Origin: Coriobacteriaceae bacterium AM48-5
Lineage (GTDB): Bacteria; Actinomycetota; Coriobacteriia; Coriobacteriales; Coriobacteriaceae
Reading direction: 5' to 3'
Length of the DNA stretch: 26,677 nucleotides
Assembly (NCBI GenBank): GCA_027669525.1
Contig: JAQEDJ010000032.1
Coordinates: forward strand, 1 to 26,677
The notes below the pieces were generated by a model, which was given only the letters and a program-made list of their open reading frames with translations, was not told the DNA's origin and did no database searches. The translations under genes were made by a program, and so were the position numbers. Position 1 is the stretch's first letter. Each line of letters opens with the position of its first letter. Positions 280-26,544 of this stretch are shown here, in pieces.

Positions 280-309
280 TTGGCTAGACGCGTCGCTTTG
301 GGGTACCAT
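280..309 (+). promoter_or_regulatory. Candidate sigma-A promoter of the P-type ATPase gene
   Basis: A -35-like TTGGCT (280-285) and a -10-like TACCAT (304-309) are separated by 18 bp. Transcription would begin near 315-317, immediately before the first leader hairpin at 319. That fit supports the assignment, although both hexamers deviate from consensus and no start site is known. Confidence 0.45.
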
Positions 310-315
310 AGCTCC

Positions 316-427
316 ACTATCAACTGCCGCTCAGCACGGCAGCCTTGATGAGCCCTTGCCCTTCTCCTGGGAATTATGATCGGGCATCAATCTGCTGAGT
401 GGCCCGAATCCCAGGAGGGGACTCTAT
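316..427 (+). promoter_or_regulatory. Structured mRNA leader with competing helices and an occluded ribosome-binding site (candidate riboswitch)
   Basis: Seen directly: hairpin 1 has stem ATCAA+CTGCCG (319-329) pairing with CGGCAG+TTGAT (337-342, 345-349), with loop CTCAGCA (330-336). Hairpin 2 has CTCCTGGGA (364-372) pairing perfectly with TCCCAGGAG (409-417), which contains the Shine-Dalgarno of the ATPase start at 428, plus an inner CGGGC/GCCCG stem (381-385, 402-406). The loop of hairpin 2 carries TGCTGAG (393-399), the exact complement of loop 1. CATCAA (385-390) can pair with TTGATG (345-350) and GGG (382-384) with CCC (353-355). This gives a long-range alternative helix of about 16 bp that cannot coexist with hairpin 1. 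I infer a translational switch. I could not match it to yybP-ykoY or another family I know, and the ligand is unknown. Confidence 0.6.
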
Positions 428-3106
428 ATGCAAAAGGAATACCTGTCCGCCGCGCGGAGGTGCTCAGCGACCAAGGTGTCGATGAGAACCTCGGCCTGAG
501 CAACGACGAGGCGTCTTCGCGCCTCGCCAAGACAGGCCCTAACAAGCTCGAGGAAGCTGAGAAGACGCCGCTGTGGAAGCGTTTCTTTGAACAGATGGCT
601 GACCCTATGGTCATCATGCTGATCGTTGCCGCCGTCATCAGTGCGCTCACGGGCATGGTCAAGGGCGAGCCCGACTTTGCCGATGTTGCCATCATCATGT
701 TCGTCGTTATCGTCAACTCGGTGCTGGGCGTGGTCCAGGAAGCCAAGAGCGAGGAGGCCCTCGAGGCCCTGCAGGAGATGAGTGCGGCGCAGTCCAAGGT
801 GCTACGCGACGGCAAGCTCGTGCACCTGCCGAGCGCCGAGCTCGTGCCCGGCGACGTGATCATGCTCGAGGCGGGCGACTCCGTCCCGGCCGACTGCCGC
901 GTGCTCGAGAGCGCCACGATGAAGATCGAAGAGGCCGCGCTCACCGGCGAGTCCGTGCCCGTCGAGAAGCATGCCAACGTGATCGAGCTCGCCGCCGGCA
1001 CCGACGACGTGCCGCTCGGCGACCGTAAGAACATGTGCTATATGGGCTCCACCGTCGTGTACGGCCGTGGTCGCGCCGTCGTGGTCGGCACCGGCATGAA
1101 CACCGAGATGGGCAAGATCGCCGGCGCCCTGGCCGAGGCCAAGGAAGAGCTCACGCCGCTGCAGGTGAAGCTCGCCGAGCTCAGCCGCATCCTCACCATC
1201 ATGGTTATCGTCATCTGCGTCGTCATCTTTGGCGTTGATATCATCCGCCACGGCGTGGGCAACGTTCTTACCGACCCGACCGCCCTGCTCGACACCTTTA
1301 TGGTTGCCGTCTCGCTCGCCGTCGCCGCCATCCCCGAGGGCCTTGTTGCCGTCGTGACCATCGTCCTTTCGCTTGGCGTGACCAAGATGGCCAAGCGCCA
1401 GGCGATTATCCGCAAGCTCTCTGCTGTCGAGACCCTTGGCTGCACACAGACCATCTGCTCCGACAAGACCGGTACCCTTACCCAGAACAAGATGACCGTC
1501 GTCAAGCACGAGCTCGCTGCGCCCAAGGAGAAGTTCCTGGCCGGCATGGCGCTGTGCTCCGATGCTCAGTGGGACGAGGAGCTGGGCGAGGCCGTGGGCG
1601 AGCCGACCGAGTGCGCGCTCGTCAACGACGCCGGCAAGGCTGGCCTCACCGGCCTGACTGCCGAGCATCCGCGCGTGGGCGAGGCCCCGTTCGACTCGGG
1701 CCGCAAGATGATGTCCGTGATCGTCGAGACCTTGGATGGCGAGTACGAGCAGTACACCAAGGCGCGCCCGACGTGGTGATCGGCCTGTGCACCCATATCT
1801 ACGAGGGCGAAAAGGTCGTCCCGCTGACCGAGGAGCGTCGCGCCGAGCTCGTGGCCGCCAACAAGGCCATGGCCGACGAGGCTCTGCGCGTGCTGGCGCT
1901 GGCAAGCCGCACCTACACCGAGGTCCCGAGCGACTGCAGCCCCGCTGCGCTCGAGCGCGACTTGGTCTTCTGCGGCCTGTCCGGCATGATCGACCCGGTC
2001 CGCCCCGAGGTCGCCGAAGCCATCCGCGAGGCCCACGACGCTGGCATTCGCACCGTCATGATCACGGGCGACCACATCGACACCGCCGTGGCCATCGCCA
2101 AGCAGCTGGGCATCGTCACCGATCGCAGCCATGCCATCACCGGTGCCGACCTCGATCGCATGAGCGACGAGGAGCTCGACGCGCACATCGAGGACTACGG
2201 CGTGTACGCCCGCGTCCAGCCCGAGCACAAGACCCGCATCGTCGAGGCCTGGAAGTCGCGTGACCAGATCGTGGCCATGACGGGCGATGGCGTCAACGAC
2301 GCCCCGTCCATCAAGCGCGCCGACATCGGCGTGGGCATGGGCATCACCGGTACCGATGTCACCAAGAACGTCGCCGACATGGTACTTGCCGATGACAACT
2401 TCGCTACCATCATCGGCGCCTGCGAAGAGGGTCGTCGCATCTACGACAACATCCGCAAGGTCATCCAGTTCCTGCTTTCGGCCAACCTTGCCGAGGTGTT
2501 CTCGGTGTTTATCGCCACGCTCATCGGCTTTACCATCTTCCAGCCGGTGCAGCTGCTGTGGGTGAACCTGGTCACCGACTGCTTCCCCGCGCTCGCGCTG
2601 GGCATGGAGGATGCCGAGGGCGACATCATGAAGCGCAAGCCGCGCAACGCCAAGGACGGTGTCTTTGCCGGACATATGGGTCTGGACTGCGTGGTCCAGG
2701 GCCTAATCATCACCGCGCTGGTGCTGGCGAGCTTCTTTGTGGGCGTGTACTTTGACATGGGCTACATCCACATCGCCGATATGATCGCCGGCAATGCCGA
2801 CGAGGAAGGCGTGATGATGGCGTTCATCACGCTCAACATGGTCGAGATTTTCCACTGCTTCAATATGCGCAGCCGTCGTGCGTCGCTGTTCACCATGAAG
2901 AAACAGAACAAGTGGCTGTGGCTTCCGCCGCGCTGGCACTGGTGCTGACGGTGATCGTGACCGTGCAGCCGACGCTTGCCGAGATGTTCTTTGGCCCCGT
3001 GACGCTTGAGCTCAAGGGCGTTGTCGCTGCCCTGGGCCTGGCCTTCCTGATCATCCCGCTGATGGAGATCTACAAGGCGATCATGCGCGCGGTCGAGAAG
3101 GAGTAG
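428..3106 (+). CDS. P2A-type calcium-transporting P-type ATPase (interrupted by three -1 frameshifts)
   Basis: ATP-driven cation export pump of the inner membrane, most like SERCA/PMCA-type Ca2+ ATPases. In order it shows an actuator TGES motif (about residue 172), the M4 motif AAIPEGL, the phosphorylation motif DKTGTLT (Asp about 346), the hinge TGDGVNDAP (about 618), and the M5/M6 residues NLAE and LLWVNLVTDCFPALALG, which in Ca2+ pumps form the ion site. Inferred length is 893 aa, normal for the family. I choose ATG 428 because AGGAGG (413-418) lies 9 bp upstream. An upstream in-frame alternative at 376 would put the leader hairpin inside the coding region. Breaks: near 452-454, at 1761-1762 (YTKGAPD needs GGG) and at 2920-2921 (GGG to GG). 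All three are single-base losses, so sequencing error is more likely than pseudogenisation. Ca2+ specificity is inferred; Mn2+ or Mg2+ is possible. The leader RNA probably regulates its translation. Confidence 0.9.
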
Positions 3107-3220: not shown

Positions 3221-3261
3221 TCGGATAACCTCTCGGGACCATTGGCTGAGGGAAAGTTTGT

Positions 3262-3295
3262 GAGCTGGTCGGGCTTTGCCCGGCCAGCTCTTTTT
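3262..3295 (+). terminator. Intrinsic terminator downstream of the ATPase gene
   Basis: A 13-bp stem beginning GAGCTGG and ending CCAGCTC (one G-T pair) has a TTT loop and is followed by TTTTTGATTT. It separates the ATPase unit from rsgA. Confidence 0.8.
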
Positions 3296-3343
3296 GATTT
3301 AAAATACCTGCTCAGTTGTGTGGTTTTGTGCTGGGAGGCATCT

Positions 3344-4527
3344 GTGGGCAAGGCTAAGGCTAAAGCGAAGAAAAAGACGACGGGGGCGCGGGCTAAGCGC
3401 GATCGTCGTCGGAAGCTCGCGACCGAACCCCCTGCATCTGCTGAGGAGTTGCTGGCGAGTGTACCGGGGCTTGACGCGCTGCAGGATGTTCCGGCGTTTG
3501 ATGACCTGCCGGTCGATGAAGCTCAGCAGGCTGCCTTTGATGATTTCTGCGCACATGCCGAGGAGCCCGAGCAGATGCAACTTGGCGCCGTGGTGCGCTT
3601 GGATCGTGGGTTTCCGCTGGTGGCGACTGCCGACGATACCTTCCGCGCCGAGCATGCCGTGGGATTTGCCAAGTCGCGCGGTGGGGACGAGGTCCTGCTG
3701 CCTGCCGTGGGCGATCGTGTGGCGGTGCGCCGCGCTCCCGGGCACGATATGGGCGTGATTGAATGCGTGCTGCCGCGCCGTACGAGCTTTGAGCGTTGGC
3801 GCGGCCGTGCCCGCGGAGAGCGCCAGGTGCTCTGCTCCAACGTGGATAGCGTGCTAATCGTGCAGGCGCTCGGTGCCGGTGAGGTGCTGCTCGACCGCGT
3901 GGCGCGCTCGCTGGTGTTGGCGCTCGACTGCGATGCCGAGCCGGTGGTGGTACTCACCAAAGCTGATCGCTGCGATGCCGAGGAGCTCGAGCGCGATCTG
4001 GACCGCGCGCGCCGCCTGGTGGGTCCGGACGTGCGTGTGATCGTGACGTCCTCTGCCGAGGGCCGCGGCCTGGACGAGGTCCGTGCCTGCGTGCCCGCCG
4101 GGAGCTGCGCCATGATTCTGGGCGAGTCGGGTGCCGGCAAGTCGACGCTGCTCAATGCGCTGCTGGGCCACGATACGTTGGCGACCGGCGGTGTGCGCGA
4201 ACGCGACGATCAGGCCGTCACACTACCGTCGCGCGCGTGATGGTGGCACTGCCGGGCGACGCCGGCGTGATCGCCGATGCCCCGGGCCTGCGCAGCCTGC
4301 CGCTCGTGGGTCACGAGCGGGGTCTGGCGCGCGCTTTCCCCGAGATTGTCGAGGCATCGCGCGCGTGCCGGTTTGGCGATTGCACGCATACCCATGAGCC
4401 GGGCTGCGCCGTTCGCGAGGCCGAGGACGCCGGGCAGATCGATAGCCTGCGTCTGGAAACGTTCCAAAACCTGGCGTCATCCATGCGCGTGAGCGCTCAA
4501 ATGCTCGATCCCGATGTCCATCTGTAA
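3344..4527 (+). CDS. rsgA: Ribosome small-subunit-dependent GTPase RsgA (one -1 frameshift)
   Basis: Circularly permuted GTPase that acts in late maturation of the 30S subunit. The order G4-G1-G3 typical of RsgA is visible: VLTKADR (G4), then the P-loop GESGAGKSTLLNALLG (G1), then DAPGLRS (G3-like). The C-terminal zinc motif CRFGDCTHTHEPGCAV follows (Cys-X5-Cys-X-His-X5-Cys type). An OB-fold-like segment precedes the GTPase domain. I choose GTG 3344, with GGGAGG at 3333-3338; the protein then opens with a Lys/Ala-rich basic tail, as in other actinobacterial RsgA. Inferred length is 394 aa. The break is at 4213-4214, where restoring GGG gives DDQGRHTT, the conserved switch-I region. Standing alone between two terminators, it is probably monocistronic. 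Confidence 0.9.
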
Positions 4528-4543
4528 TTGATTTTTCCTATGA

Positions 4544-4580
4544 CAGCCGTCTCCCAACTGTTCGGGAGACGGCTTTTTTT
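4544..4580 (+). terminator. Intrinsic terminator after rsgA
   Basis: AGCCGTCTCCC and GGGAGACGGCT form an 11-bp perfect stem around a short loop, followed by a run of eight T. Confidence 0.9.
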
Positions 4581-4619
4581 TGCTGCGGAAAAGCTTCGAA
4601 ACATACAGTTTGCTGACGT

Positions 4620-4671
4620 GCTGACCAAAACCTTGCCACGAGCTTGACGGGCTGGTCAGCTTTTGGTCAGC
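4620..4671. promoter_or_regulatory. Inverted repeats upstream of the tad operon (possible operator)
   Basis: GCTGACCAAAA (4620-4630) and its exact complement TTTTGGTCAGC (4661-4671) form an 11-bp inverted repeat with a 30-bp spacer. A further GGTCAGC half-site sits at 4654-4660. The repeats lie 111-162 bp upstream of the first tad gene, after the rsgA terminator. A regulator site is a reasonable inference; I could not find a clear promoter next to it. Confidence 0.4.
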
Positions 4672-4781
4672 GATTGGTTTGACATCGAAAACCAAGATTG
4701 CGATTGCGCCGCTTTGCACTCTGACCGCTCAGACAATGGTGGTACGGGCATTCGCCCGGCACTGCCATGAGAGGAGCGGCC

Positions 4782-5441
4782 GTGAACAAGAGCAAGCGCA
4801 TCGCCATCAGTCTGGTCGCGGGCGTGCTCGCTGCTCTGCTCTGCATGGTTTACGGCTCGTCGATCCGCTCGCAAGCCGAACAGGTCCAGGCTGAGACCTT
4901 GGCCAAGTACGGTGGCGATCGCGTCGAGGTTTGCGTCGCGGCGCGCGATATCGATGTGGGCGAGACCCTCGATGAGACCAATGTCATAACCCAGGAATGG
5001 CTGACGAGCCTGCTGCCGCGTGACGCAGCGACCGAGCTGCGCCAGGTGCGCGGCGACGTGACGACTTCGCGTATTCCCAAAAACGCCGTGATCTGCAATG
5101 TCTACACCAAGGCCGAGAGCCGCAAGCTCGAGGTGCCTAAGGGCAAGGTTGCCGTTTCGGTGGCGGTCGATGCCGAGCACTCGGTCGGCGGTGCCACGGG
5201 CGTGGGCAGCTACGTGGACGTGTACGTGCAAAAAGACGGCGTAACCGATCGGCTGTGCGGTGCGTACGTGATCGATACCAGTGAGGATTCCGGTGCCACG
5301 CGCGAGGGCAAGATCGAATGGGTGACGCTGGCGGCTGACCCCGAAGACGTCAAGGAACTGCTGGGCGCCTCGGGCAAGGGAACGGTCAGCTTGACGATTC
5401 CCGCCACGGCGCGCGGCAAAAAGAGCGGAGGCGACGAGTGA
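4782..5441 (+). CDS. cpaB: Flp pilus assembly protein CpaB/RcpC (SAF domain)
   Basis: First gene of the tad operon. The protein (219 aa) has a single N-terminal membrane segment (about residues 7-25, ISLVAGVLAALLCMVYG). An SAF-type domain follows, starting VCVAARDIDVGETLDETNV, where the family pattern is 'A-x-R-x-I-x-x-G-x-x-L'. The C-terminal part resembles the RcpC/CpaB fold. In diderms this protein works with the secretin; in monoderms it is thought to help the pilus cross the cell wall. I choose GTG 4782 over the upstream ATG at 4767 because AGAGGAG lies 6 bp before it. Its stop TGA overlaps the next ATG (TGATG), which suggests translational coupling. Confidence 0.85.
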   Translation: MNKSKRIAISLVAGVLAALLCMVYGSSIRSQAEQVQAETLAKYGGDRVEVCVAARDIDVGETLDETNVITQEWLTSLLPRDAATELRQVRGDVTTSRIPKNAVICNVYTKAESRKLEVPKGKVAVSVAVDAEHSVGGATGVGSYVDVYVQKDGVTDRLCGAYVIDTSEDSGATREGKIEWVTLAADPEDVKELLGASGKGTVSLTIPATARGKKSGGDE

Positions 5442-7089
5442 TGAAGGCGATCTGGCTTGCGTGCTGCGCGTGCGGCGATTACGGGCTGTTGCAGCGGGAA
5501 GTCGAGGGCCGTGATGCGGGTGCACAGGTGCTTCGCGTGGGTGACCTGGACGGGCTGGTTTCCATGGCGCGGGCGTTTCCGTCGCGCCGCGGGGCTGCCA
5601 TCATCGCGGCGTCTCTGTTTGATACCGAAGATGTTCGCAAGGCTGTTGCGCGCCTGACGGCCGAAGGCCGCGTGAGTCGCGTGGTCGTGTTGATAGAAGC
5701 GCTCGATCCGTCGGATATCGAGGGGCTGTTTCGCGCGGGGGCGACCGAGGTCATCGCTGCGCACAGTATATGCGGCAACGGGCGCGCGGGCGAGGGAGCG
5801 GTTGATTCCGATCGGCGCATGACGATTGAGCCCGATGCTTTTGTTGATAGGGAACCCGGGGCGCCTCGCGCTACAAGAGGCCCGCGTGTTGATGATTATG
5901 GAAAAGCGGAAGCCGAGCATGGTCGGCGCCCCGGAACCCCCTTGTATGCGATGACGCTGGAGGGCCGGCGCAGCATGCTGGCGACTCCCCGGCTGTAGAT
6001 ATGGGATACGTGCACGGCGTGCATCTGGTGGATGAGCTCGACGAAGTTGAGGGCTTTGCCGGGTGCGGCGAGTTGTCGCTGATGCAGCATGAGCAGATTG
6101 CGCAGAACGAGCTTGCTTCGCAGACCGAACAAGCTGCCATGCCGGCTTGGACGCAGCGTGTGGTTGCGGCGGAGGAGACGGGGACGCTGGCACCGACGCC
6201 CGCACCGCCGCCTCCGATGCCGCCGGTAGACGCTGCCGCTCCGCAGCGTCGAGCTCCGGTCATCTGCGCCATTTCGGGTTCGGGCGGTTGCGGCAAGTCG
6301 ACGATCGTTGCCACCATGGCACACACATCGTCGCTGTTGGGCTTGCGTGCCGCCGTGCTCGACCTGGACCTGATGTTTGGAAACCTTTACGACTTGTTAG
6401 GTGTCGATGCTCCGCGCGATATGGCGGCGCTTATCGAGCCATCGGCGGCGGGCGCGCTCACCGAGCCGGATATCGTAGCCACATCGATGCGCGTGGCGCC
6501 GGGCGTTACGCTCTGGGGTCCCGTCGCGGCGCCCGAGCAAGCCGAGCTCATGGCACGTCCGGTGGAGCTACTGCTTGATGTCCTGCGTCGCGAATCCGAC
6601 GTGGTCTTTATCGATACCTCGGTCTTTTGGGGCGACGCCGTGGCGGCTGCGGTGGCGGCGAGCGACCGTTGCCTGGTCGTTGGCGATGCTGCGGTGTCGT
6701 CCGCGACATCGGCGTCGCGCGTCATCGAACTGGCAAGTCGAGTAGGTGTGCCGCGCACGCGCATGAGCGCCGTGTTCAACCGGTTCGGTGCGCGCGGGGC
6801 AGACGAGGACGTCGCCATGCGCTTTGAGATTGCCTGTGCGTTGAGCTCCAAGATTCGTATCGCCGATGGCGGGCAGGATCTCGCCGCGCTCATGGCGTTT
6901 GGGCGCGCTGACGAGGCGGTGGGGCAGACCAGTGCTTTTGCGACTAGCATGCGCGAGGCCACGCGCGAGATGCTCGTGGAACTGGGGTGCGCCGTCGGCC
7001 CTTGGGGCGATATGGTCGCCGACCGTGCAACGCGTACCGAACGCCCGCGTATCCGCCTTCCCTGGTTGCGCGAGGGTGATCAGCGATGA
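5441..7089 (+). CDS. cpaE: CpaE/TadZ-like pilus-localisation ATPase (one -1 frameshift)
   Basis: ParA/MinD-family protein that places the Tad machine in the cell. The N-terminal part (about residues 1-125) resembles the atypical receiver domain of CpaE (RVVVLIEALDPSDIEGLFRAGATEVIAAH). A long Pro/Ala-rich linker (APTPAPPPPMPPVDAAAP) leads to a MinD-type ATPase domain with the deviant P-loop SGSGGCGKST (about residue 280), the LDLDLMFGNLYDLLG segment, and DVVFIDTS as Walker B. The frame breaks at 5980-5981; restoring GGG joins the two parts as RRSMLGDSPAVDMGY. Inferred length is 549 aa. Without that correction an annotator would report two proteins (ending at 5998 and starting at 6001). The linker around the break is poorly conserved, so that junction is the least certain in the operon. 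Confidence 0.8.
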
Positions 7090-8413
7090 GCCTGCAAACG
7101 AGGATTAAGGCTGCCGGCGCTGCAGCGGCGGCAGCGCCTGTAGATGCGGGGCGTCGCCGCGCGGTGAAACGACGCACCAAGCGCGCCGTGATGGACCGCA
7201 TGGGTTACGACGAAGTGGCGCGTATCAGCGCCTATATCGACCCGGCACTTGCCCGCTCGGAATTGCGTCCTGCGGTGGAGGCGGCGCTCAATGTTGAGGA
7301 GCCGACCGATCTCGCGACGCCCGAGCGCGAAACCATCATCGACGAGATTTTGGATGACGTGGTGGGCTTGGGGCCGTTGCAGCCGCTCATCGAGGACGAC
7401 ACCGTTACCGAGATCATGATCAACGGCTGCCGCTCGGCTTTCTTTGAACGCGGCGGCGTCTTGTACCCCATCGAGCATGCGTTTGAGGATGATGAACAGA
7501 TCCGTGTGCTTATCGACCGCATCATCTCGCCACTTGGCCGCCGTATCGACGAGCGCAGCCCCATCGTCAACGCCCGCCTCAAAACGGGCTATCGCGTCAA
7601 CGCGGTGATTCCGCCTGTGGCGATTGACGGACCGATTCTCACCATCCGAAAGTTCTCGGACCGTATCTGCTCGCTGGACGAGCTTGTGGGGCTGGGGTCG
7701 CTGCCGCTTTGGTATGCGCAGCTGCTGTCGTGCGCGGTGTCGCTGCGACAGGACCTGGCGGTTGCGGGAGGCACGGGATCTGGTAAGACCACCCTGCTCA
7801 ACGCGTTGTCATGTGAGATTTCCACCGGCGAGCGCATCGTGACGATCGAGGACTCTGCCGAGCTCAAGTTTGCGCATCATCCGCACGTGGTGCGCCTAGA
7901 GGCGCGCGAGGCTTCAATTGAGGGTGAAGGCGCGGTGACGATCCGCGACCTGGTAACTAATGCCCTGCGCATGCGCCCCGACCGCATCGTGGTGGGCGAG
8001 GTGCGCGGTGCCGAGTGCTGCGACATGTTGCAGGCCATGAACACGGGCCACGACGGGTCGCTCACCACACTTCATGCGGGTTCAGAACAGGAGACCGTGG
8101 TGCGTCTGACGTTGCTTGCACGTTATGGCATCGACCTGCCGAGTGAGCTCATCGAGGAGCAGATTGCATGGCGCTCGACGGTATCGTGATGTCCGAGCGC
8201 CACGCCGATGGCAGGCGCTTCGTCTCCTCGTATTCGGGGGTGCGACGCGCCGCATCGGGCGGCGTAGAGCTCGAGCGCTATGTGACGTTCGATGCCGCCG
8301 AGCGCACCTGGACGCTTGACCGCGAGCCGCCGTTTATCGCAGAAGGCCTGCGGTCGGGGACGCTCACACAAGAGGAGGTGGACGAATGGAGATCGCTGTG
8401 CCCCTCGTCGTAG
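7086..8413 (+). CDS. cpaF: CpaF/TadA secretion ATPase (one -1 frameshift near the C-terminus)
   Basis: Hexameric type II/IV secretion ATPase that powers Flp pilus assembly on the inner face of the membrane. It shows the family's [12 protein letters not shown] segment, Walker [15 protein letters not shown] (about residue 227), the Asp box, Walker [12 protein letters not shown] (about residue 300), and the His box [12 protein letters not shown]. The start at 7086 overlaps the cpaE stop by ATGA. The frame is lost at 8167-8168; restoring one base gives [22 protein letters not shown] and continues to a stop at 8413. Inferred length is 442 aa. The last 28 bp overlap tadB. Confidence 0.9.
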
Positions 8414-9309
8414 GGGGCTTGGCAGGGCTTTCTGTCGCGACGGCGTGCGGGGCGGAACCTCGTGTGCCGCAGGTACGCCGGCGGAGCTGGCACGTCAGGC
8501 GCTCGAGACGGTGGCAGAGAAGCTGCCGCGTGAGCTGGTGGAAAACGATCTGCTGAAAAAGATCGCCCGTTCGTGGGCATCGCTGGCTCCGGCGCATCGC
8601 CTTGGCCTCGTGATCGAGGATGCTTCGGGATGTTTGGCGTTTCTGCTGCTATCGAGCGGTGTCTGCTGCGTTTTACTAACGATGGTGTCGTTATCGCCCC
8701 TCGGATTTGCCTTGGGACTTGTTGCTCCGTTTGCCGTTGGTGCCGCTCGGGATGGCTTTGAGAGCCGGCGCGAGCAACACGATGCAGAAGAGGCAATGCC
8801 CGAGGCGTTTACCGCACTTTCCATGTCGCTTGCCTCGGGACATTCGCTGGCCCAGGGCATGCGCTTTGTGGGCGCTCATGCGCAAGAGCCAGTGCATAAC
8901 GAGTTTTTGCGGGTGGCGGCGGCGATCGATTGCGGCATCTCGGCGACCGACGCGCTCGATGACTTGCTCGTGCGTATCGACGCCCCCGGTCTTTCGCTTG
9001 TGACCTTGGCGCTTAAGGTGTCTCAGCGCACCGGCGCTCCGCTTGCCGACTTACTGTCCGAGGCGTCGAGCATGGTGGGGGAGCGCATTGAGCTCAAGCG
9101 CCGCCTGGATGTTAAGACGTCGCAGGCTCGCATGTCTGCGCATATGGTCGCGGCGATGCCGGCGGGCATGTGCGCGGTGTTGGCGCTGCTTTCGGCAGAT
9201 TTTCGTCGCGGTCTTGCGACGCCTGCCGGCGCGGGCGCTGTGGTGCTGGGTCTTGCCTCAACGCCGTTGCCTGGTGGTTATCCGGCGCATTATGCGGGTG
9301 GAGCTATGA
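8386..9309 (+). CDS. tadB: TadB, inner-membrane platform protein (three -1 frameshifts)
   Basis: One of the two GspF-domain platform proteins of the Tad system. ATG 8386 has AGGAGG at 8373-8378 and lies inside the end of cpaF. After a leading hydrophobic segment there is a pair of membrane helices (residues about 80-125, CLAFLLLSSGVCCVLL and LGFALGLVAPFAVG). The GspF core follows: EEAMPEAFTALSMSLASGHSLAQGM and RRLDVKTSQARMSAHMVAAMP. Breaks are at 8472-8473 (GGG to GG), 9256-9257 (CCC to CC) and 9276-9277 (GGG to GG). Repair yields the typical TadB ending LNAVAWWVIRRIMRVEL, with a stop at 9307-9309 that overlaps the tadC ATG. Inferred length is 308 aa. Read uncorrected, tadB and tadC appear as one 551-residue fusion. 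Confidence 0.85.
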
Positions 9310-9947
9310 GCGCCCCGGTTGCAGTTGCGGCTTGCCTGTGCGCCCTGAGCGTATTTGTCGCGACGGGGTTGGATCGGGCGGATGCACGCAAGGTCGCAGG
9401 GGCCTGCAAGCGCGAGGCGGTGCTGGTCGCTGCCGCGGGTCGCTCGGTGGTCGATGCTCTGACCGCGCGAGTGAAGGGCGCGGTTGGAGCGGGCGGCCCG
9501 GCGCGAGTGTCGCTCGGCGAAGTGTCCGAGATGATCGATGTTGTGCGCTTGGGTCTTTCGGCCGGTCTTTCGTTTGATGCGGCGCTTGAGATTTTCTGCG
9601 CCAACCGCCGGTCAGTGCTGGCTCTTCGCCTTGAGCGCGCCTGCATGGCGTGGCAGGTGGGCGTGGGCACGCGTGAGGACGAGTTGTTGGCCGCCGCGCG
9701 CGACCTGGACGTGCGAGCGCTCGAGACCTTTGCCATCACGGTGGGGCAGGCGCTTGCCCTGGGCGCTCCGCTGGCCGAGACGCTGGCTGCTCAAAGTCGC
9801 GAGATCCGTGCGGCCCATCGCGCCGCAGTCGAGCGCGAGATCGAGCGTGCGCCCGTCAAGCTGCTGATTCCCACCGGCACGCTCATCTTGCCGGCGTTGC
9901 TTCTGTCCATATTGGGCCCGCTGCTGGGAGCAGGCGGGATGATGTAG
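9306..9947 (+). CDS. tadC: TadC, inner-membrane platform protein
   Basis: Second GspF-type platform protein, 213 aa, on the short side for the family. ATG 9306 overlaps the corrected tadB stop as ATGA, the same coupling used elsewhere in this operon. The GspF domain is in the middle (EVSEMIDVVRLGLSAGLSFDAALEIFC and ARDLDVRALETFAITVGQALALGAPLAETL). A C-terminal membrane segment follows (VKLLIPTGTLILPALLLSILGPLL). An N-terminal hydrophobic stretch (VAVAACLCALSVFVATG) probably spans the membrane. TadB and TadC are expected to form the pilus assembly base above the CpaF ATPase. Confidence 0.8.
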   Translation: MSAPVAVAACLCALSVFVATGLDRADARKVAGACKREAVLVAAAGRSVVDALTARVKGAVGAGGPARVSLGEVSEMIDVVRLGLSAGLSFDAALEIFCANRRSVLALRLERACMAWQVGVGTREDELLAAARDLDVRALETFAITVGQALALGAPLAETLAAQSREIRAAHRAAVEREIERAPVKLLIPTGTLILPALLLSILGPLLGAGGMM

Positions 9948-15110: not shown

Positions 15111-15165
<55 letters not shown>

Positions 15166-15183
<18 letters not shown>

Positions 15184-21199: not shown

Positions 21200-21286
21200 G
21201 CGGGCGTGGCGGAATTGGCAGACGCGTACGGTTCAGGTCCGTATGGGGGCAACCCCATGAAGGTTCAAGTCCTTTCGCCCGCACCA
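21200..21286 (+). tRNA. tRNA-Leu (CAG)
   Basis: An 87-nt class II tRNA: acceptor GCGGGCG/CGCCCGC, anticodon stem TACGG/CCGTA with loop TTCAGGT (anticodon CAG), long variable arm TGGGG-GCAA-CCCCA, and T-loop TTCAAGT. A73 is followed by an encoded CCA (21284-21286). Its 3' half is repeated at 21458. Confidence 0.97.
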
Positions 21287-26467: not shown

Positions 26468-26544
26468 GCGGCGTTACCTCAGCTGGATAGAGGGTCTGAC
26501 TACGAATCAGAACGTCATAGGTTCGAATCCTATACGCCGCACCA
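26468..26544 (+). tRNA. tRNA-Arg (ACG)
   Basis: A 77-nt cloverleaf including CCA: acceptor GCGGCGT/ACGCCGC, D-arm CCTC...GAGG, anticodon stem TCTGA/TCAGA with loop CTACGAA (anticodon ACG, A34 presumably deaminated to inosine), and T-arm ATAGG-TTCGAAT-CCTAT. CCA is encoded at 26542-26544. Confidence 0.97.

Follow-up and report, generated by a model that had tools for sequence, protein, structure and literature searches.

A conserved bulged-hairpin RNA precedes Ca2+-type ATPase genes in two families of Coriobacteriia and is probably a translational riboswitch

Introduction

The window analyzed here, a whole stretch of 26,677 nucleotides from Coriobacteriaceae bacterium AM48-5, carries near its beginning a gene for a Ca2+-type P-type ATPase, preceded by a short segment that an initial annotation had described as a riboswitch-like leader with three perfect complementarities, mutually exclusive helices and a hidden Shine-Dalgarno (SD) sequence. 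This raises the question of whether the segment is a genuine regulatory RNA and, if so, how it would act on the pump and what it would sense. We find that positions 316-427 form a conserved structured cis-regulatory RNA, which confirms the original observation in a stronger form than first stated. The leader is probably a cis-acting RNA switch that represents a new riboswitch class and exerts translational control over the Ca2+-type ATPase.

Results

Distribution of the leader

A DNA search recovered the leader in 35 of 58 relatives. Using R1, a covariance model built from 16 sequences, we identified it in at least 158 of 396 Coriobacteriia genomes, a lower bound because strict filters were applied. 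All of these genomes belong to two families, f1 and f5, taken as Coriobacteriaceae and Atopobiaceae, and the 22 of 396 genomes that matched R1 in a phylum-wide sample fall within the same two families only. The exact core pattern was found in at least 120 stretches, with 123 matches among the matches listed, and in no stretch from viral contigs. Hosts, listed for 80 of these at least 120 stretches, include Collinsella, Olsenella, Atopobium, Lancefieldella, Thermophilibacter, Parafannyhessea and kin, the remaining entries being uncultured Coriobacteriaceae, Atopobiaceae, Coriobacteriales, Coriobacteriia or actinobacterium. Within f5, the exact core pattern is present in 53 of 61 genomes, with a variant in at least one other (G244, locus L134).

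Close ATPases (59-68% identity) are also encoded in 2 of 30 genomes of f2, an Eggerthellaceae-type family by inferred name, and neither genome gave a significant R1 match with the filters off. In genus g36, two genomes (L327, L328) encode the ATPase but show no recognizable RNA, and in genus g23 the core has diverged in three genomes (L329-L331); therefore, the pump can do without the RNA. Collinsella G005 retains only an ATPase fragment whose start is missing. In some Collinsella, a second ATPase copy lies about 3-7 kb away (on another contig in G096), and each such copy has its own diverged RNA (L106, L111, L114, L115, L119 and L133, in genomes G009, G018, G035, G014, G096 and G022, respectively), with a core reading GAGGCCC...UUAAGAUC and an SD reading CCCAAGAGG or CCCAAAAGG.

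Structure and covariation

The segment 316-430 folds at -44.8 kcal/mol, compared with a mean of -34.4 kcal/mol for shuffled sequences (z = -2.8; 0 of 200 shuffles this low), and the wider segment 310-440 gives z = -2.29, with 1 of 200 shuffles this low. Each of the three claimed complementarities is present in the sequence. The pairing of loop 1 (330-336) with 393-399 is real and grows to an 11-bp helix, P1 (326-336/393-403), and both parts of the proposed continuation of this long-range helix were located, TTGATG/CATCAA at 345-350/385-390 and CCC/GGG at 353-355/382-384. The initial annotation overlooked the conserved core, which consists of P3 (CCC/GGG) together with the strands UUG and AAUUAUGAUC and forms a compact bulged hairpin, GCCC-UUG-CCC / GGG-AAUUAUGAUC-GGG.

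The covariation analysis was based on A2, an alignment of 98 leaders (96 distinct) assembled from the 158-genome matches and earlier loci, leaving out near-identical C. aerofaciens-group copies and lower-ranked matches. Double changes occur at 16 of 23 pairs in A2, and the 253 double-change cells compare with 73 after shuffling and 21-66 when the partners are slid; these counts lean towards the structure of the model, since A2 was fitted to it. A MAFFT alignment, A1, agrees, with 36 double-change cells versus 11.9 in shuffles; it combines the window with 15 distinct leaders, another 15 of the 30 loci being identical to the window over that stretch. Parsimony on an ATPase tree of 96 tips, from which two short ORFs were dropped, yielded 99 double pair-to-pair changes, 82 in P1 and 17 in P2, versus 1-6 for six slid controls. 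On the same tree, pairing was lost through a single change in 81 instances and through a double change in 19. Among paired cells, 1766 are Watson-Crick, 161 G-U, 31 A-C and 136 other mismatches, and the marked excess of G-U over A-C indicates that the RNA of the + (sense) strand is under selection. P2b and P3 hardly vary as pairs in A2, so covariation cannot prove these two helices. Homologous leaders thus keep pairings whose loss, in the initial annotation, would have counted against the proposal, as seen in the P1/P2 covariation and the SD helix, and what stands in the 5' leader of the relevant gene is a conserved, aptamer-like structured RNA.

Table 1. Positions of the leader elements and the linked gene in the window, with the basis for each.
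Feature	Position	Strand	Basis
Candidate -10 element TACCAT	304..309	+	GTANNNT-like motif in relatives; read from sequence
Structured RNA leader	316..427	+	model match in Coriobacteriia genomes; ATPase downstream in aligned cases
P1, 5' strand GCCGCUCAGCA	326..336	+	double changes at all 11 pairs in A2; missing from minimal leaders (by eye)
5' bulge CGGCAGCC	337..344	+	338-344 at 85-92% of aligned leaders; missing from minimal leaders
P2, 5' strand UUGAUG	345..350	+	double changes at 5 of 6 pairs
P2b, 5' strand CCC	353..355	+	invariant in A2, 96 of 96 distinct rows
Core internal loop, 5' side UUG	356..358	+	95-96 of 96 per position
P3, 5' strand CCC	359..361	+	95-96 of 96 in A2
Anti-SD strand CUCCUGGGA	364..372	+	native versus swapped duplexes; loop motif
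P3, 3' strand GGG, common to anti-SD	369..371	+	96 of 96 in A2
Core internal loop, 3' side AAUUAUGAUC, candidate ligand site	372..381	+	column conservation in A2
P2b, 3' strand GGG	382..384	+	invariant in A2, 96 of 96
P2, 3' strand CAUCAA	385..390	+	same basis as P2 5' strand
P1, 3' strand UGCUGAGUGGC	393..403	+	same basis as P1 5' strand
SD strand UCCCAGGAGG	409..418	+	410-418 conserved in 74-88 of 90-91 rows
Loop sequence UUAUGAUC	leader
ATPase start codon ATG	428..430	+	start identical in close relatives
Ca2+-type P-type ATPase, interrupted	428..2948	+	ORFs 376-1779 and 1554-2948

Conservation is uneven along the elements of Table 1. On the 3' side of the internal loop, positions 372, 374-376 and 379-381 are conserved in 94-96 of 96 leaders and positions 373, 377 and 378 in 81-86 of 96, and the P2 pair G350-C385 is broken in 24 of 92 rows. 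P3 is backed by extended stems in L030 and L134, its CCCC/GGGG is retained around unrelated loops in L120, L129 and L137, and it is shortened to CC/GG in two of the three genus g23 leaders, which lie outside A2 (by eye). Minimal leaders (e.g. L322, L324, L136 and L138) lack both P1 and the GGCAGCC bulge, and by eye their RNA would begin just ahead of P2. The indispensable part therefore comprises P2, P2b and P3 plus the UUG/AAUUAUGAUC internal loop.

Hairpin 1 (319-329/337-349), the third of the original complementarities, is present in the window sequence and in its minimum-free-energy (MFE) structure, but it finds no support among relatives: the six-pair form is 71.9% paired, against 70.5% for shuffles, 110 of 500 of which reached as high a value, and the extension 319-323/345-349 is absent, by eye, from 15 of 25 distinct leaders. 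With pairing at shuffle level, we discarded the view of hairpin 1 as a general feature that serves as a conserved alternative pairing. Since both GCC and GGC are conserved, its four inner pairs persist in 14-16 of 16 rows, which leaves room for a short form of the hairpin. The inner stem of hairpin 2 likewise appears in the window MFE structure, yet by eye it is not kept by relatives.

Sequestration of the Shine-Dalgarno sequence

The SD is very likely sequestered by the P3 loop. The helix 364-372/409-417, proposed at the outset, is conserved: CUCCUGGG lies within 73 of 98 P3 loops, and native loop/SD duplexes, compared over 96 distinct pairs of the 98, have a mean of -16.9 kcal/mol, versus -16.07 kcal/mol after SDs had been exchanged between leaders (0 of 200 exchanges reached so low a value) and -7.1 kcal/mol with shuffled loops. 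The helix also partly co-varies. The SD reads CCCGGGAGG in six leaders, three of which (L140, L094 and L101) have the compensating loop CUCCCGGGG, with a wobble in L092 and no match in L070 and L120; L108 combines the CUCCCGGGG loop with an ordinary SD. The anti-SD motif [CU]UCC[UC]GGG is missing from 19 of 98 loops.

Both the SD duplex and P3 need GGG 369-371. Mutually exclusive helices therefore exist, as had been claimed, but the element in conflict with the SD helix is P3 rather than the long P1/P2 helix. Under a nearest-neighbour energy model, which ignores pseudoknots and tertiary contacts, constrained folding of 93 leaders (five core-only rows dropped) gave the SD-hidden fold the lower energy in 86 and the core fold the lower energy in 7; the difference averaged 6.7 kcal/mol over the full 93. 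Of the same 93 leaders, 72 have an MFE structure that retains at least 80% of the SD helix, and 2 have one that retains at least 80% of the core pairs. For the window, the energies are -40.8 kcal/mol (SD-hidden), -37.1 kcal/mol (core) and -42.4 kcal/mol (MFE).

A second design is found in genus g65 (L129, L134 and L137), where the P3 loop carries no anti-SD; instead, CCCGAUC immediately ahead of the SD is complementary to GAUCGGG, the 3' strand of P2b. Computationally, the expression platform and the aptamer thus exclude each other, as judged from GGG 369-371, this second design and the folding energies. In L329 the SD lies inside the loop of a small hairpin, AUGUAUC-GGGAGG-GAUACAU, and L330 is alike (by eye); this is possibly a third SD-hiding platform.

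The linked ATPase gene and the promoter region

An ATPase gene of the SERCA/PMR1-like Ca2+ type lies downstream of all 98 aligned leaders. Among the matches listed for the exact core pattern, the ATPase follows on the same strand in 121 of 123; the two other stretches end 115 and 154 bases past the match, and what remains of them resembles the start of the ATPase (by eye). The leader is therefore linked to a Ca2+-type transporter gene, which its position suggests it controls.

In the window, the two ATPase pieces carry cation-ATPase Pfam domains and have TIGR01522 and TIGR01116 as their best NCBIfam matches, each under the full-length cut-off. The reading frame is broken at least twice relative to all eight close relatives compared (the first 1.5 kb, in 8 of 30 loci), which is probably an assembly error or a decayed copy. 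By eye, the second piece seems to stop early, and the leader itself is intact. For the orthologue L061, the best solved relative is the Listeria Ca2+ ATPase lmo0841 (about 1e-200), which we take to be LMCA1, followed by type 2C member 1 and SERCA (about 1e-149 to 1e-146). The motifs PEGL in M4, N..E in M5, N..TD in M6 and E in M8, whose residues presumably form the two Ca2+ sites of SERCA, are present in the L061 alignment and in the window pieces. Glu occupies M5 and M8 positions of L061 that are Ala and Arg in the aligned lmo0841; if these are Ca2+-site positions, as we assume, L061 is more SERCA-like than lmo0841.

Further downstream are an RsgA-type GTPase gene (3242-4240) and, within 3242-9947, genes resembling a Flp/Tad-type pilus cluster (RcpC, ParA-like, T2SSE, T2SSF). 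The window also contains three tRNA genes (15111-15183, 21200-21283 and 26468-26541).

The candidate promoter reported ahead of the leader is plausible. A GTANNNT-like -10 motif was found in 79 of 98 leaders, in 46 of these at 42-44 nt before the core, versus 0.25 per shuffled sequence, and transcription is expected to start near position 316 from this conserved -10-like motif.

Discussion

The picture of an SD-sequestering, riboswitch-like leader of a Ca2+-type ATPase is supported computationally, and we consider it likely that the leader responds to a ligand. Our preferred reading, to which we assign a probability of roughly 0.6, is a translational ON switch in which a ligand would stabilize the core and free the SD. 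In the absence of ligand, CUCCUGGGA would be paired to UCCCAGGAG, so that the SD would be hidden and the pump OFF. Ligand would bind the internal loop UUG/AAUUAUGAUC and stabilize P2b-P3, which would then reclaim GGG 369-371, freeing the SD and turning the pump ON. The main argument for this direction is that two designs make SD hiding incompatible with the core. In addition, a fold that is conserved and rarely the ground state resembles a ligand-stabilized state, and the freeing of the SD by core folding would fit an exporter turned on by its substrate.

The ligand may be the ion that the pump exports. Ca2+ is the leading guess, and a tentative one, because the sole gene found after the leader is an ATPase with SERCA-type site residues. 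Mn2+ is the main alternative, because PMR1-type pumps also carry Mn2+. It is conceivable, at less than even odds, that a bulged-hairpin core of about 45 nt senses Ca2+ directly and turns on a SERCA-like exporter through at least two SD-sequestering platforms. If so, the leader would clearly exemplify an aptamer shared by different SD-hiding platforms. Because the RNA is compact, well defined and tied to one Ca2+-type pump in two bacterial families, the question is amenable to immediate probing.

The opposite logic, in which ligand would lock P1, P2 and P3 together with a kissing pseudoknot between the P3 loop and the SD and leave the pump OFF when bound, appears rather unlikely to us. Such a ligand-bound pseudoknot is possible because P1/P2 are topologically compatible with the SD helix and could coexist with it, and the energy model lacks pseudoknots; moreover, most leaders have the anti-SD in the P3 loop, and the CUCCU/AGGAG part could, on a reading of the sequence, pair while P3 stays intact. 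However, 53 of 98 leaders can form CCCC-UCCU-GGGG, whose 4-nt loop seems too tight for a 5-bp kiss, the matched SD duplex uses the GGG of P3, and the second design (L129, L134 and L137) employs a P2b strand and is incompatible with the core. It would also make little sense for an exporter to be switched off by its own substrate.

A leader that responds to a protein or small RNA, with a trans-acting factor binding the core to open or close the SD and no small ligand involved, is similarly improbable in our estimation. Many protein sites share the shape of a short conserved bulged hairpin, and no ligand is known; nevertheless, the element precedes one transporter gene in every case checked, which points to the substrate of the transporter.

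A constitutive or thermosensing SD hairpin without a ligand would account for the hidden SD in the predicted ground state of most leaders. It would leave unexplained the near-invariant positions among 352-361 and 372-384, the P1/P2 covariation outside the SD helix, and the leaders (L030, L129, L134 and L137) that keep the core with a P3 loop devoid of anti-SD. The core is conserved beyond what SD pairing alone explains, and we regard this possibility as very improbable. Chance complementarity or a DNA operator, for which the adjacent promoter-like motif is the sole point, is scarcely credible in view of the excess of double pair-to-pair changes over the slid controls and the bias of G-U over A-C.

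Comparison with known systems

A scan of the leader with the 4227 covariance models of Rfam 15, the kind of check that the initial annotation had named, gave no match to a known family at the gathering score, and with E values up to 10 returned only two chance matches to lncRNAs, on the opposite strand (E 4.3 and 9.5). Thirteen divergent homologous loci likewise had no match at the gathering score. These models should, we assume, include the known ion riboswitches. A 2017 survey reportedly described 224 motifs. The leader is not described in the titles and abstract openings returned by the literature searches, nor in the passages considered from two surveys that mention Collinsella (PMC2864571, PMC8040213), the latter of which holds many unnamed motifs in its supplements. 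No paper naming a calcium riboswitch was found in the literature searched, which excludes most subscription journals.

Riboswitches exist for Mg2+, Mn2+, Ni2+/Co2+, Na+, Li+ and fluoride. The yybP-ykoY RNA is an Mn2+ riboswitch that is ON with its ion and also occurs before P-type ATPases; unlike that two-legged junction, the present RNA is a single bulged hairpin with no Rfam match. The DUF1646 and nhaA-type riboswitches have other structures and genes than the present leader, which, unlike them, matches no Rfam family. The likenesses concern the linked genes. In PMC7266159, the leader of the yybP-ykoY riboswitch precedes putative cation transporter genes, and here too a leader RNA lies ahead of a cation transporter gene. 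Similarly, PMC9337991 and PMC9646797 present the DUF1646 Na+ and nhaA-type Li+ riboswitches as cation-sensing RNAs that regulate cation transporter genes; the present leader shares the type of gene, and cation sensing here is a guess. The msiK leaders (PMC2864571), which precede one transport gene, form a long bulged hairpin, with the ribosome binding site included in the 3' side of its base. The present RNA resembles them as a bulged hairpin that involves the ribosome binding site of one transport gene, and differs in the gene, in the SD arrangement and in having no Rfam match. Box 4 of a 2022 review counts K+, Ca2+ and Zn2+ among the strong candidates for ligands of undiscovered riboswitch classes (PMC10043782). 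Should the ligand of this leader prove to be Ca2+, it would be the first Ca2+ riboswitch known to us.
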